Assembly (NCBI RefSeq): GCF_000421745.1
Contig: NZ_ATXP01000002.1
Location: forward strand, 124,001 to 188,000
Length of the DNA: 64,000 nucleotides
Reading direction: 5' to 3'
From: Nesterenkonia alba DSM 19423
GTDB lineage: Bacteria; Actinomycetota; Actinomycetes; Actinomycetales; Micrococcaceae
Shown here piece after piece: positions 1 to 4,078 of this stretch. The notes below the pieces were generated by a model that saw only the letters and a program-made list of their open reading frames with translations, had not been told where the DNA came from and made no database searches. A program made the translations under genes and the position numbers. Numbering within the stretch: position 1 is the first letter of the stretch; every line of letters starts with the position of its first letter.

Positions 1-1095
1 CGCGGGCGTCTCAGCAGAGTGTGCGGCCCGTTGCAGCGCAGTGTCGAGGTCGGCGATGAGGTCAGCCGGATGTTCCAATCCGATCCACAGCCGCACCAGG
101 GCCGGGCGGACCCCGGCAGCGCGGCGCTGTTCCTCACTGAGGTCCCTATGGGTGGTGGCCAGGGGGCTGATCGCCAGTGCCTGGGGCCCACCCACACCGG
201 AAGACCTGCGGAACAGCCGGAGTGCGGCTACTGTCTCCCGGGCCGCAACAGCCTGGTTGACCGGGTCCCGTCCGGCAGAGACCTCGAAGGAGACCACCGC
301 ACCGGCCCCGGCTGGCAGGTAGGAGTCAGCCCGTTCTGCGCAGGGGCTGGTCACCAGCCCGGAGTAGTAGGCGTGGTGCACCCCCGGGTGGGCGTGGAGG
401 AACTCGGCGACCTGCTGAGCGGCGGCAGTCTGGCGGGTCATCCGGGCAGCCAGAGTGTGCAGCCCAGCGGAAATCTCCTCCGCAATGACCCCCGGCAGGG
501 CCGGTCCCAGCTGCCGGGGCAGCGGTTCCCGCAGAGCCGGTTCCACAGTGCCGGCGTCGATGATGATCCCCGCCGCGGTCCGGGCACGCCCGGACAACAG
601 GTCCGCGCTGGTGTGGACCACCAGGTCAGCACCCCGCTCGATGGGTCGGACCAGGTACGGCGTGGCCAAGGTGTTGTCCACAATGAACGCGGCGTCGTGC
701 TGGCGGGCCAGTTCGGCGACCTCATCGAAGGCCAGCACGTCTCCGCGGGGGTCGGCAATCGACTCACTGAGCAGGGCAGCCGTGGTGGGTTTCAGCTCGG
801 CACGCCAGGATTCGGCGTCGTCGGGATCCGCCACAGTGTCCGCCTCCACGCCGAAGCGCGGCAGCAGCTCGGTGAACACCTCACGGTGCCCCGCGAACAA
901 CGAAGGCGCCACCACAATGTGGCTACCGGGTTCGGCCACATGCAACACCGCCAACGCCAGGGCTTCTCGCCCGTCGGTGACAGCCCGTGCCTGTGCTCCG
1001 CCTTCCAGGGAGGCCAGCGTCTGCTCGAGAGTCTCCGTGGGGTTGTCGCTGCGGGAGGATGCGGCGTGAATCAGCCGGGTTTCAAATTCGCTCAT
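1..1095 (-). CDS. Cystathionine gamma-synthase-fold protein lacking the PLP lysine (3' end off window)
   Basis: Reads leftward from ATG 1095 and is still open at base 1, so at least 365 codons are present and only the last few residues are missing. It clearly belongs to the Cys/Met-metabolism PLP family (MetB/MetY): LASLEGG near residue 28, VDNTLATPYL at 139-148 with the pyridine-binding Asp140, GADLVVH at 155-161 and a C-terminal LVRLWIGLE carrying the carboxylate-binding Arg. The Schiff-base lysine of the family motif H-S-x-T-K is replaced: the sequence reads HTSAD and Asp165 sits where Lys belongs. Roughly 40-50 N-terminal residues, which in the family complete the neighbour's active site, are absent, and the phosphate-binding YSR and SGM motifs read SSR and DGR. 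The start is fixed by GGAG six bases upstream. SAM-riboswitch control ties it to sulfur amino acids, but PLP catalysis looks impossible; the actual role is unknown. Confidence 0.85.
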   Translation of the reverse strand, partial: MSEFETRLIHAASSRSDNPTETLEQTLASLEGGAQARAVTDGREALALAVLHVAEPGSHIVVAPSLFAGHREVFTELLPRFGVEADTVADPDDAESWRAELKPTTAALLSESIADPRGDVLAFDEVAELARQHDAAFIVDNTLATPYLVRPIERGADLVVHTSADLLSGRARTAAGIIIDAGTVEPALREPLPRQLGPALPGVIAEEISAGLHTLAARMTRQTAAAQQVAEFLHAHPGVHHAYYSGLVTSPCAERADSYLPAGAGAVVSFEVSAGRDPVNQAVAARETVAALRLFRRSSGVGGPQALAISPLATTHRDLSEEQRRAAGVRPALVRLWIGLEHPADLIADLDTALQRAAHSAETPA

Positions 1096-1143
1096 GATGG
1101 TCTCCATCCGTGCTCATCAGGTGAGACCCGCACTGTGGAGTGA

Positions 1144-1267
1144 AGGTCCGCGCTTGCCGTGACGGGTGCTTATCCGTCCGGCCAGGTCGTCACCCGGGGC
1201 ACCCCACCGCGAACTGGAGGGTTGCCGGCCAGCAAACCGGGGTTTTGCGCTGGCACTCTTGACCTAG
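1144..1267 (-). ncRNA. SAM-IV riboswitch upstream of the PLP-fold gene
   Basis: On the minus strand this leader matches the actinobacterial SAM-IV consensus: CTAGGTC at the 5' end pairs with GACCTGG to close P1, followed by GTGCCAGC, the CCCCGG / CTGGCCGGCAACCCTCC block, GCGGTGGGGTGCCCCGGGTGA, and a distal CGGCAAGCGCGGACC element. SAM-IV aptamers bind S-adenosylmethionine and repress methionine or sulfur genes. Downstream, GGTCTC (1123-1128) can pair with GAGACC (1099-1104), covering the Shine-Dalgarno of the gene starting at 1095, so control is probably at translation initiation. The class call rests on recalled consensus, not a covariance search. Confidence 0.9.
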
Positions 1268-1362: not shown

Positions 1363-2139
1363 ATGAGCGAGTACTCCACCATCACCACCAGGACAACTCA
1401 CCGGGTGACCACGATCGAACTGAACCGACCGGAGGCGCTCAACGCCCTGAATCGGCAGCTGATGGAGGAGGTGTTGTCCGCAGCCCGCGCAGCTGAGACG
1501 GACGAAGACGTCGGGGCGGTGCTGCTGACCGGGTCGGCGAAAGCTTTTGCCGCGGGGGCGGACATCACGGAGATGGCCGCACACAGCAGCACCAGTGTGC
1601 GGCAAGCCGATATTTTCTCCGGGTGGGATCAGCTGGCACAGCTGCGCATTCCCATCGTCGCGGCTGTACGGGGTTACGCCCTCGGCGGGGGCTGCGAGCT
1701 GGCGATGATCGCCGATGTCATCATCGCCGGGGAATCCGCGCAGTTCGGTCAGCCGGAGATCACTCTGGGCATCATCCCGGGGATCGGCGGCACCCAGCGC
1801 CTGGCCCGCACCGTAGGGAAAGCCACAGCGATGGATATGGTCCTCACCGGCCGGCGGATCACTGCCGCGGAGGCTGAAACCATGGGGCTGGTGTCCCGGG
1901 TGGTGGCCGACGACGACGTCGTCACCACCGCCACCGACGTCGCTGAGCAGATCGCCCATCACCCGGGGCAGGCGGTCCGCCTGGGCAAAGAGGCGGTCTT
2001 GGCGGCCTTCAACACCCCGCTGGAGCAGGGGCTGCACTATGAACGGCGCCTATTCGAGACGCTCTTCGACACCGAGGATCAAGCCGAAGGCATGGCTGCC
2101 TTTACCCAGAAGCGCCGCGCCGAGTTCCGGCACCGATGA
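1363..2139 (+). CDS. Enoyl-CoA hydratase/isomerase (crotonase family)
   Basis: A 258-residue protein of standard crotonase length, starting at ATG 1363; the upstream in-frame extension crosses the promoter and is rejected. Crotonases hydrate trans-2-enoyl-CoA in the cytosol during beta-oxidation or amino acid breakdown. Visible motifs are AAGADITEM (oxyanion region), GYALGGGCELA and QFGQPEITLGIIPGIGGTQRL-type sequence containing the first catalytic Glu. The second catalytic position (E164 in the rat enzyme) reads AMDMVLTG, an Asp, which is common in actinobacterial EchA proteins. The exact substrate cannot be told. It converges on the FAD-binding protein gene and their 3' ends overlap by 38 bp. 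Confidence 0.9.
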   Translation: MSEYSTITTRTTHRVTTIELNRPEALNALNRQLMEEVLSAARAAETDEDVGAVLLTGSAKAFAAGADITEMAAHSSTSVRQADIFSGWDQLAQLRIPIVAAVRGYALGGGCELAMIADVIIAGESAQFGQPEITLGIIPGIGGTQRLARTVGKATAMDMVLTGRRITAAEAETMGLVSRVVADDDVVTTATDVAEQIAHHPGQAVRLGKEAVLAAFNTPLEQGLHYERRLFETLFDTEDQAEGMAAFTQKRRAEFRHR

Positions 2140-3889
2140 CGTAACCGGCCGCCGCATGGGCATCGGCCAGCGTGCTGGCCGTGGTCCGCGCACTGCCGGA
2201 GGCCTCTGCCGCGATCGCTGTGCCCCACTGAGCCGAGCTCAGTTGCAGTCCCAACACCAGCAGACCCTCAGTGGGTGCGCCCGCCGCGTTCAACGGCCGG
2301 TGGGGGCGCGTGGTCACCGCGAAGCCCTTGTGCTCCTCACCGGCGAGCACCGCCGGGGTGACTTCTCCTGCATCGAGCAGGCCACGCACCAGTGGCTGCT
2401 CAGCCAAAGTGACACGGTTCGGCGGCATCATCGCCTCCACCAGGTGCCGTGCTCGGTAGACGGCGTTCTGTACCTGAGGTGAACGTGCGGTGAAGACCCC
2501 GGCGGCGTCGTCGACGCTGAACTGTGCCGCCGGACCCAGGAACGTGACCACCCCGGCACGGGCCAGCGCGGCGAGTTCTTCGATCCGCTGCACTGGTGGC
2601 CCGGAGGCGAGCCCTTCCACCAGCGGCTCCAAGGTGCCTTCAACGTCATGGACGCGCACCTCATCGCTGATCCGCCCTTCGCTGATCCAGGCTTTGATCT
2701 GCAACCGGGCAGCGTGCAGCGCACCGACGGCCATCTTCTCCGCACTGGCCTGACCTGCCCAACAGGCCGCGGCGTCGGCGACCAGATACTCGGCGGCCGC
2801 CTGTTGGTAGTCCTCCCCGGTGGTGAACTGATGCCCCAGAAAGGGGTGAGCGTAGTTACGGATGGTGAACTCACCGGTGCCGCCGTAGCGCTGATAGTGC
2901 TCGGTGACCTCAGCAGTGAGCATGTCCCAGAGCACAGCGGCGTCGTCGAGCACCCCGGAGCCTGTCAGGTTCTGCAGAATGGCGTCGGTGGTGTGCCGGA
3001 GGGTGATGCCGGCCGGCACGAATCCAGGCAGCACGGATTTTCCCCGGTACGGAACACCGCGCCTCGCCCCGGCGATGAGGTGCGGTTCGGCACCGGAAGG
3101 CGCATAACGCAGACGGTGACCGGCTGGGGCATCCTCCACGGTGTGGAAGACACCACCGCGGCCGGCCGTGGTGGCGATCATCAGGTCGAAGAAGTTCAAC
3201 CCCATCCCTCGGACCAGTACCGGCTCCCCAGCGGGCAGGTCCTCGAATCCGGCGCGGGTGGGAATCGCCGGTGGGCTGTAGTGCAGACCGTGCTGCTCGG
3301 CATGGGCGGCCAGGTCAGCCCGGGCGGCATCGAGGCGGGCGGGGATGTGGCCCAGGCAGAGCACCGCGGTGCGGCAGTGGGCCTGGCCGTCCTCGGTCTG
3401 CAGTCTCCATCCCTGTGCCACCGGGGTCAGTGCCGTGACGTGACTGCGGCGCAGGTCAACCCGCACACCCAGTGCCCGCAGCCCAGAACAGACCTCGGTG
3501 AACAACGCGCTCAGGTACCGGCCGTAGTCGGCTCGGGTGGGGTAGTCCCCGGGTTGCCAGTGGCCGCCGGTGCGCTGAGACCACTGCAAGAAGCTCATCG
3601 CACACGACGACGCCGGCAACTCACCGGTGGTGTCTCCAGTCGGCGCCGCTGTGGGGAATTCGGCGGGGGTGTTCATCAGGTACAGCGGGGATTGGCCCGG
3701 TTCCCACACCGCACCGCATCCGGGTTCGGCCGGTTCACACACCAGCACGCTGAGATCTTCGGCCGCTGCTGGGTGCTGCTCACAGTGGGCAAGCAGCCGT
3801 TCCAATAATGACGTCCCGCGTGGACCGGCACCGATCACCGCCACCTGGTAGCCGGGCTCGCCTGCGCTCCCGGACTCGTCTGAACTCAT
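2102..3889 (-). CDS. FAD/NAD(P)-binding protein (NAD_binding_9 family)
   Basis: 595 residues from ATG 3889. A Rossmann dinucleotide motif VAVIGAGPRGTS lies about 20 residues in, followed by an acidic strand end and a LYLMNTPAEFPTA segment; this matches the FAD-NAD(P)-binding family PF13454 found in actinobacterial adenylyltransferase-like or HdrA-like oxidoreductases. The natural substrate is not known for this family. A longer reading frame reaches 4021 but would run into the tRNA-Ser terminator region, so the shorter start is used. Downstream it converges with the crotonase gene and shares 38 bp with it. No signal peptide or membrane segment is seen, so it should be cytosolic. Confidence 0.8.
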   Translation of the reverse strand: MSSDESGSAGEPGYQVAVIGAGPRGTSLLERLLAHCEQHPAAAEDLSVLVCEPAEPGCGAVWEPGQSPLYLMNTPAEFPTAAPTGDTTGELPASSCAMSFLQWSQRTGGHWQPGDYPTRADYGRYLSALFTEVCSGLRALGVRVDLRRSHVTALTPVAQGWRLQTEDGQAHCRTAVLCLGHIPARLDAARADLAAHAEQHGLHYSPPAIPTRAGFEDLPAGEPVLVRGMGLNFFDLMIATTAGRGGVFHTVEDAPAGHRLRYAPSGAEPHLIAGARRGVPYRGKSVLPGFVPAGITLRHTTDAILQNLTGSGVLDDAAVLWDMLTAEVTEHYQRYGGTGEFTIRNYAHPFLGHQFTTGEDYQQAAAEYLVADAAACWAGQASAEKMAVGALHAARLQIKAWISEGRISDEVRVHDVEGTLEPLVEGLASGPPVQRIEELAALARAGVVTFLGPAAQFSVDDAAGVFTARSPQVQNAVYRARHLVEAMMPPNRVTLAEQPLVRGLLDAGEVTPAVLAGEEHKGFAVTTRPHRPLNAAGAPTEGLLVLGLQLSSAQWGTAIAAEASGSARTTASTLADAHAAAGYVIGAGTRRGASG

Positions 3890-3941
3890 GGAGAGCAGAC
3901 TACTGGCCTGCTGCCGCCACAGGTGCAGCACTGTCACGAAA

Positions 3942-3984
3942 GAACCCCCGCCTGAGAGGAAAGTCCTCGTCAGACGGGGGTTCA
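3942..3984 (-). terminator. Terminator downstream of tRNA-Ser
   Basis: GAACCCCCG and CGGGGGTTC are exact complements, with further pairing inside (GAGGA/TCCTC). In the minus direction the hairpin begins 7 bases after the tRNA 3' end and is followed by TTTCGT. Confidence 0.75.
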
Positions 3985-3990
3985 GCGGGC

Positions 3991-4078
3991 GGAGGCGGAG
4001 GGATTTGAACCCTCGATCCACGGTTAAGCGGATCCTTCATTAGCAGTGAAGTCCGTTCGGCCGCTCCGGCACGCCTCC
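3991..4078 (-). tRNA. tRNA-Ser(GCT)
   Basis: Class II tRNA of 88 nt. The acceptor stem GGAGGCG pairs with CGCCTCC, with discriminator G; the anticodon stem CTTCA/TGAAG encloses CTGCTAA, anticodon GCT, decoding AGC/AGU. It has an extra variable arm and the T-arm GGGTTCAAATCCC. CCA is not encoded. Confidence 0.97.

Follow-up and report, generated by a model that had tools for sequence, protein, structure and literature searches.

What keeps a gene of the metY family in a methionine operon when the product no longer carries the lysine that MetY uses to hold its cofactor? The question is raised by the first 1,095 bases of a 64,000-nucleotide stretch of the Nesterenkonia alba DSM 19423 genome (contig NZ_ATXP01000002.1, positions 124,001 to 188,000; the whole stretch is called the window here), which encode a MetY-family protein that we refer to as pseudo-MetY. 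Among the 30 Nesterenkonia genomes compared (the window genome being G000), two others carry the same shortened protein, namely G012 and N. pannonica DSM 29786 (NZ_CP080575.1; G016). We think it probable that pseudo-MetY is a noncatalytic pseudoenzyme, kept in the original riboswitch operon of a small Nesterenkonia clade and acting there as a partner protein. The features on which the argument draws are as follows.

1..1095, minus strand: pseudo-metY, coding for a MetY-family protein, 365 of its 369 codons in the window (start codon based on orthologues)
91..93, minus strand: Arg335 codon (canonical Arg416, from alignment to intact MetY); the substrate-carboxylate Arg is kept
520..546, minus strand: second internal deletion region, residues 184 to 192 (canonical 233 to 240 and 253 to 278 absent in both full copies)
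601..603, minus strand: codon of Asp165, at the Schiff-base Lys position (canonical Lys212, a Lys in all 27 intact MetY proteins of the genus)
676..678, minus strand: Asp140 codon (canonical Asp187, from alignment to intact MetY); the pyridine-nitrogen Asp is kept
1057..1062, minus strand: first internal deletion junction, after residue 12 (canonical 19 to 58 absent, Tyr59 replaced)
1102..1105, minus strand: GGAG, Shine-Dalgarno-like, 6 nucleotides before the ATG at 1095
1145..1264, minus strand: SAM-IV (S-adenosylmethionine [SAM]) riboswitch aptamer (RF00634), upstream of pseudo-metY (105.4 bits versus a gathering score of 38)

The gene and its lost active site

Pseudo-MetY belongs to the Cys/Met metabolism pyridoxal 5'-phosphate (PLP)-dependent family (PF01053; 261.3 bits, E = 1.3e-77, cut-off 27), and the solved structure nearest to it by sequence, 4kam, is an O-acetylhomoserine sulfhydrylase. 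With the MetY model itself (TIGR01326) it reaches 275.1 bits against a cut-off of 495.1, compared with 626.2 bits for one intact Nesterenkonia MetY, and of the 42 NCBIfam families that match it none exceeded its own cut-off among the 25 matches listed; a defense-system library gave no match. The original prediction had described an open frame with Asp140, Asp165, and the substrate-carboxylate Arg (Arg335), all of which we found as described. The gene does not end at base 1, its final four codons and stop codon being located to the left of the window. Two ATG codons, at 1107 and 1095, share the frame, of which the latter is most likely the start (protein MSEFETRL), since both orthologues begin with MTEFETRL and since GGAG precedes this ATG.

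The lesions were read, in canonical numbering, against the 27 intact MetY proteins of the genus. Asp165 aligns without a gap on the Schiff-base Lys (VVHTSADLL versus VVHSATKFL), bearing out the replacement that had been proposed. The predicted loss of N-terminal active-site residues held in part; 40 residues are indeed gone, but from within the protein, after a kept FETRxIHA, and the N terminus itself is not missing. This first excision ends directly before Tyr59 of the YxR motif, two residues of which, Tyr59 and Arg61, extend into the active site of the neighboring subunit in the Cys/Met PLP family. Tyr59 itself is replaced, aligning with Ser in the window copy and having no counterpart in G012; at Arg61, the window copy shows Arg and G012 shows His. 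The second deletion is wider in the window copy than canonical positions 233 to 240 and 253 to 278. Elsewhere, Asp stands in for Ser88 as well as for Lys212, Gln90 has become Arg or Pro, Ser209 has become Thr, Thr211 is now Ala or Leu, His217 is Arg, and Asn381 is Gly or Ser. What we take to be the phosphate cup of MetY (Ser88, Gln90, Ser209, and Thr211, plus Tyr59 and Arg61 of the neighboring subunit) is thus not preserved in the window copy, where the first four positions read Asp, Arg, Thr, and Ala. Gly89, Tyr114 (as Phe or Tyr), Asp187, Thr396, and Arg416 are retained, as is, according to the structure prediction, the fold. Given the loss of the Lys and of the greater part of the phosphate cup, MetY chemistry by this protein is, judged from its residues, not credible, and we regard it as dead as a MetY with near certainty. 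It is, in other words, an enzyme homologue that lacks essential catalytic residues.

The riboswitch operon and its lineage

The SAM-IV aptamer, not listed in the original prediction, is complete (model positions 1 to 116 of 116). An intact MetY had been thought worth looking for just to the left of base 1; what lies there, after a gap of 20 bases, is metX (C2:122802-123965), the product of which scores 421.8 bits with PRK00175 (cut-off 331) and, of two closer models, just misses NF047917 (461 of 475) and clearly misses TIGR01392 (404.3 of 500). With SAM-IV upstream and metX downstream, pseudo-metY therefore occupies the metY place of a SAM-IV-metY-metX operon. A SAM-IV match was found in all 30 genomes and is followed in 27 of them by a MetY of 439 to 483 residues, with Lys at the Schiff-base site throughout, and then by metX on the same strand, at gaps of -4 to 196 bases. 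In the other three, the shortened protein takes the place of metY, each time with Asp. The G012 copy has 373 open codons, is 67% identical to the window copy, and lies between a SAM-IV match and a metX gene 9 bases downstream. In N. pannonica, the gene is in pieces of different frames, one of which reads PFLARPVEQGADLVVHTSLDLLAGR, with the Asp, and the string VVHTSxDLLxGR is identical in all three copies. Since metX and rpoB of N. pannonica are also in pieces and the genome table gives a completeness of 62%, this breakage most likely reflects the assembly and not the gene. The deposited complete chromosome of this strain has frame breaks in all three genes examined (pseudo-metY, metX, and rpoB).

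The search for orthologues sharing the Asp-for-Lys change was thus successful, with two further genomes carrying the same Asp and the same excised segment, and Lys occurred only in the 27 intact MetY proteins and in distant homologues, never in an orthologue of the shortened form. A sequencing or single-codon error is ruled out, as three genomes share the Asp and the excision and the lesion far exceeds one codon. Outside the genus, profile A1 was run against 395 genomes of the family, 396 of the order, and 394 of the class, all drawn from larger groups, at E limits of 1e-60, 1e-60, and 1e-80, respectively; in one of these scans, loci were taken from the best 12 places only. All 55 distinct homologue rows read outside the pseudo-MetY group had Lys, as had L177; this count excludes four Asp-bearing rows of the pseudo-MetY group and a misaligned fragment from N. 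pannonica (L015). A scan of genome contigs returned at least four loci, one of them a pseudo-MetY, and 1,228 plasmid records contained a match, all below 60% identity. In another family of the order, a Lys-bearing MetY relative (L014, G073:C169) with a SAM-IV about 1 kb upstream on the same strand seems to be missing some of the MetY loop.

The identical Asp and the matching excision, together with the grouping of the three genomes in an rpoB DNA tree (support 92/96 and present in 88% of 200 bootstrap trees; 29 of the 30 genomes, G005 having no rpoB match), make one ancestral loss the simplest account, and metY probably lost catalysis in place, once, in the ancestor of the three genomes. A tree of 36 proteins pairs the two full pseudo-MetY copies (100) and places them among the MetY1 proteins of Nesterenkonia, with a stem length of 1.69 changes per column and weakly supported next forks, a result to be read with the tool's warning about long branches and the unusual letter make-up of G012. 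Horizontal spread of the pseudo-operon was raised by the MetX tree, which does not resolve the three genomes, and by that of MetY2 (see below), and is disfavored because rpoB groups them; a vertical, single origin is preferred, if not proved.

Homocysteine could still be supplied from elsewhere. The window genome encodes an intact second MetY, MetY2 (L002; 599.1 bits versus the 495.1 of TIGR01326), as well as L001, a cystathionine gamma-synthase, and L003, which is related. Of the 29 other genomes, 27 have MetY2 at 82 to 91% identity, one (G016) has a broken piece, and one (G001) has none; MetY2 is intact in both G000 and G012. In the window genome it lacks a SAM-IV, the sole one being that of the pseudo-metY operon.

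Selection, partners, and rival explanations

Provided that the loss was shared, whatever separates the two full copies dates from after it. Across 366 codons, nonsynonymous (dN) and synonymous (dS) divergence between G000 and G012 came to 0.276 and 0.948 (dN/dS 0.29), and metX gave 0.261 and 1.269 (0.21). Protein identity between the same genomes is 66.9% for pseudo-MetY, 67.2% for MetX, and 87.9% for MetY2; in 96 pairs of intact genomes with a MetY2 identity of 85 to 92% (such pairs are not mutually independent, here and below), MetY averaged 80.0% (72.6 to 87.8) and MetX 74.2% (68.2 to 84.7). By these comparisons, pseudo-MetY evolves more quickly than intact MetY does, at a pace similar to that of its own, rather fast MetX. 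The excess is unevenly spread. The two copies agree at 62.3% of the 162 columns that vary among intact enzymes, versus a mean of 59.2% (41.6 to 76.9) for 72 comparably diverged intact pairs, and at 72.0% of the 189 columns in which intact enzymes do not differ, versus 98.4% in held-out intact pairs. The most relaxed stretches are residues 62 to 81, 162 to 181, 204 to 223, and 284 to 303, and those conserved as in intact pairs or more are 42 to 61, 102 to 121, 122 to 141, 142 to 161, 224 to 243, 244 to 263, 264 to 283, and 344 to 363. Such a pattern is what a pseudoenzyme with a remaining noncatalytic job should look like, and it is very probable that pseudo-MetY is selected as a protein, conserved after the catalytic loss. 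The original idea of a conserved, regulated pseudoenzyme is supported by this persisting constraint, by the Asp shared by three of three copies, and by the riboswitch upstream.

How might such a protein act? Probably it folds as a fold-type I subunit, binds no catalytic PLP, cannot make homocysteine, and serves as a noncatalytic partner. When SAM falls, the riboswitch would let pseudo-MetY and MetX be made together; pseudo-MetY might then bind MetX, the enzyme of the preceding step, stabilizing it or tuning the supply of O-acetylhomoserine, and homocysteine would be made by MetY2. We name MetX tentatively, favoring it as the operon mate and the enzyme acting one step earlier, and because the YxR contribution would be missing from a dimer with MetY2; MetX is at least as good a candidate as the true MetB or MetY that had been suggested. 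The remaining likelihood, after MetX and MetY2, goes to another partner or to a small ligand.

That pseudo-MetY instead joins MetY2 in a mixed tetramer, inhibiting or tuning it, strikes us as unlikely, though less so than the explanations that follow, and MetY2 as partner is given the same weight. Family enzymes of the MetY kind are tetramers, and both proteins are encoded in G000 and G012. A dead paralogue reported to activate its live deoxyhypusine synthase (PMC3663545) offers a precedent. Producing a MetY2 inhibitor at low SAM would be odd, however, and MetY2 changes at columns invariant elsewhere (1 in G000 and 2 in G012, of 273) are usual among the 28 genomes. Moreover, the excision takes Tyr59 and the segment before it, so that, given the role of YxR, a mixed catalytic dimer would have no complete site.

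A slowly decaying pseudogene, redundant through MetY2 and persisting only because it is located between the riboswitch and metX, is improbable. The intact MetY2 in G000 and G012, the very long stem branch (1.69), the frame-broken N. pannonica copy, and the short gaps to metX (20 and 9 bases) would all fit such a relic, but frames of 369 and 373 codons have stayed open in two genomes, dN/dS after the shared loss is 0.29, and the variable columns are conserved as between intact enzymes; in addition, the N. pannonica metX and rpoB are equally in pieces, and the gap range of intact operons implies that tight coupling to metX is not required. Equally improbable is a ligand sensor or new Schiff-base-free active site in the former pocket, binding, for instance, homoserine or O-acetylhomoserine via Arg335: it would accord with the retained Asp140, Arg335, and aromatic residue at Tyr114, with the common VVHTSxDLLxGR, with the unrelaxed residues 142 to 161 including the neighbor of the Asp strand (80% versus 82%), and with ColD-type enzymes, which have His instead of Lys, but several stretches of the former pocket are much relaxed (identity versus intact pairs: 162 to 181, 60% versus 96%; 204 to 223, 50% versus 96%; 284 to 303, 50% versus 86%).

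Several observations weigh against the reading of pseudo-MetY as a selected partner of MetX from a single ancestral loss. The fold model is moderate, with a mean predicted local distance difference test score of 71.5 (four sequences) and values below 50 at residues 190 to 199 and 302 to 323. The G000-G012 identities of both pseudo-MetY and MetX fall under the lowest of the 96 intact pairs (72.6% and 68.2%), so that some relaxation is real. Pseudo-MetY is 49% and 44% identical to intact MetY, versus 81% among intact ones, and much of its surface must therefore have changed on the stem. It is known from three genomes only, one of them a frame-broken assembly, which fills just 16% of the rpoB columns, and the MetY2 tree joins G012 with G002 and G019 (96) and not with G000, in conflict with the rpoB clade. 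As for the partner, clade-specific changes amount to one in MetX (Q344E) and none in MetY2, supporting neither; 1 of 69 pairs reached as many, a biased comparison in that the pairs are mostly not clades with relatives removed. Changes at otherwise invariant MetX columns number 7 and 6 of 175 (G000 and G012), versus 7 of 182 in G024 and 7 of 189 in G026. With no co-change to single out MetX or MetY2, the identity of the partner is something that we infer.

Around the operon, an enoyl-CoA hydratase gene (window 1363 to 2139, plus strand) lies between the riboswitch and a gene (window 2102 to 4021, minus strand) for a PF13454 protein binding flavin adenine dinucleotide (FAD) and NAD(P). The former was not matched in the stretches, limited in length, that surround the operon in the other 29 genomes of the genus; the latter precedes the operon in each of the three genomes with pseudo-MetY and was also matched in stretches L121, L133, and L144 of genomes with intact MetY. 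A tRNA gene with a long variable arm (window 3990 to 4078, minus strand; RF00005, 54.3 bits) is flanked by the genes for the FAD protein and for an acyltransferase (PF01757).

Comparison with known systems

Pseudoenzymes are already known, PLP enzymes included. SPTLC1 and antizyme inhibitor are homologues of PLP enzymes without a working site that act through partners, both eukaryotic and from other families. Of the two systems compared below, TSB-like has a PLP fold different from that of MetY, and deoxyhypusine synthase is not a PLP enzyme. A natural Lys-less MetY or MetB, including one kept in a riboswitch met operon, was not found among the matches listed from the open-licence literature, and the terms "metY," "pannonica," and "pseudogene" are absent from the accessible portion of a comparison of the genus Nesterenkonia (PMC8875376). 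The locus amounts to a natural experiment in which catalysis was lost in place without loss of the operon, the riboswitch, or the partner gene, and 27 sister genomes with the intact form can be set beside it; annotation via PF01053 alone would count a nonworking MetY. If MetX is the partner, a consecutive enzyme in bacteria can become a regulator of the preceding step, and whether intact MetY already binds MetX becomes testable.

The nearest comparison is the intact MetY of the same operon, with which pseudo-MetY shares gene place, riboswitch, downstream metX, Asp187, Arg416, and predicted fold, and from which it differs in the missing catalytic Lys, the altered phosphate cup, and the loss of the YxR segment and of canonical 233 to 240 and 253 to 278. 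The dead deoxyhypusine synthase paralogue of trypanosomatids is likewise catalytically dead and has a role, but there the live paralogue was shown to be the partner (PMC3663545). In core eudicots, TSB-like, a noncatalytic paralogue of the second enzyme, is reported to activate the first-step enzyme TSA (PMC12727527). By analogy, pseudo-MetY could conceivably be an allosteric subunit of MetX, an operon of two consecutive enzymes having evolved in place into one enzyme plus a regulator, a doubtful idea. Both proteins are noncatalytic relatives of the second enzyme in a two-step pair; TSB-like is an added paralogue for which activation is reported, whereas pseudo-MetY is the in-place metY product, for which activation is proposed (PMC12727527).
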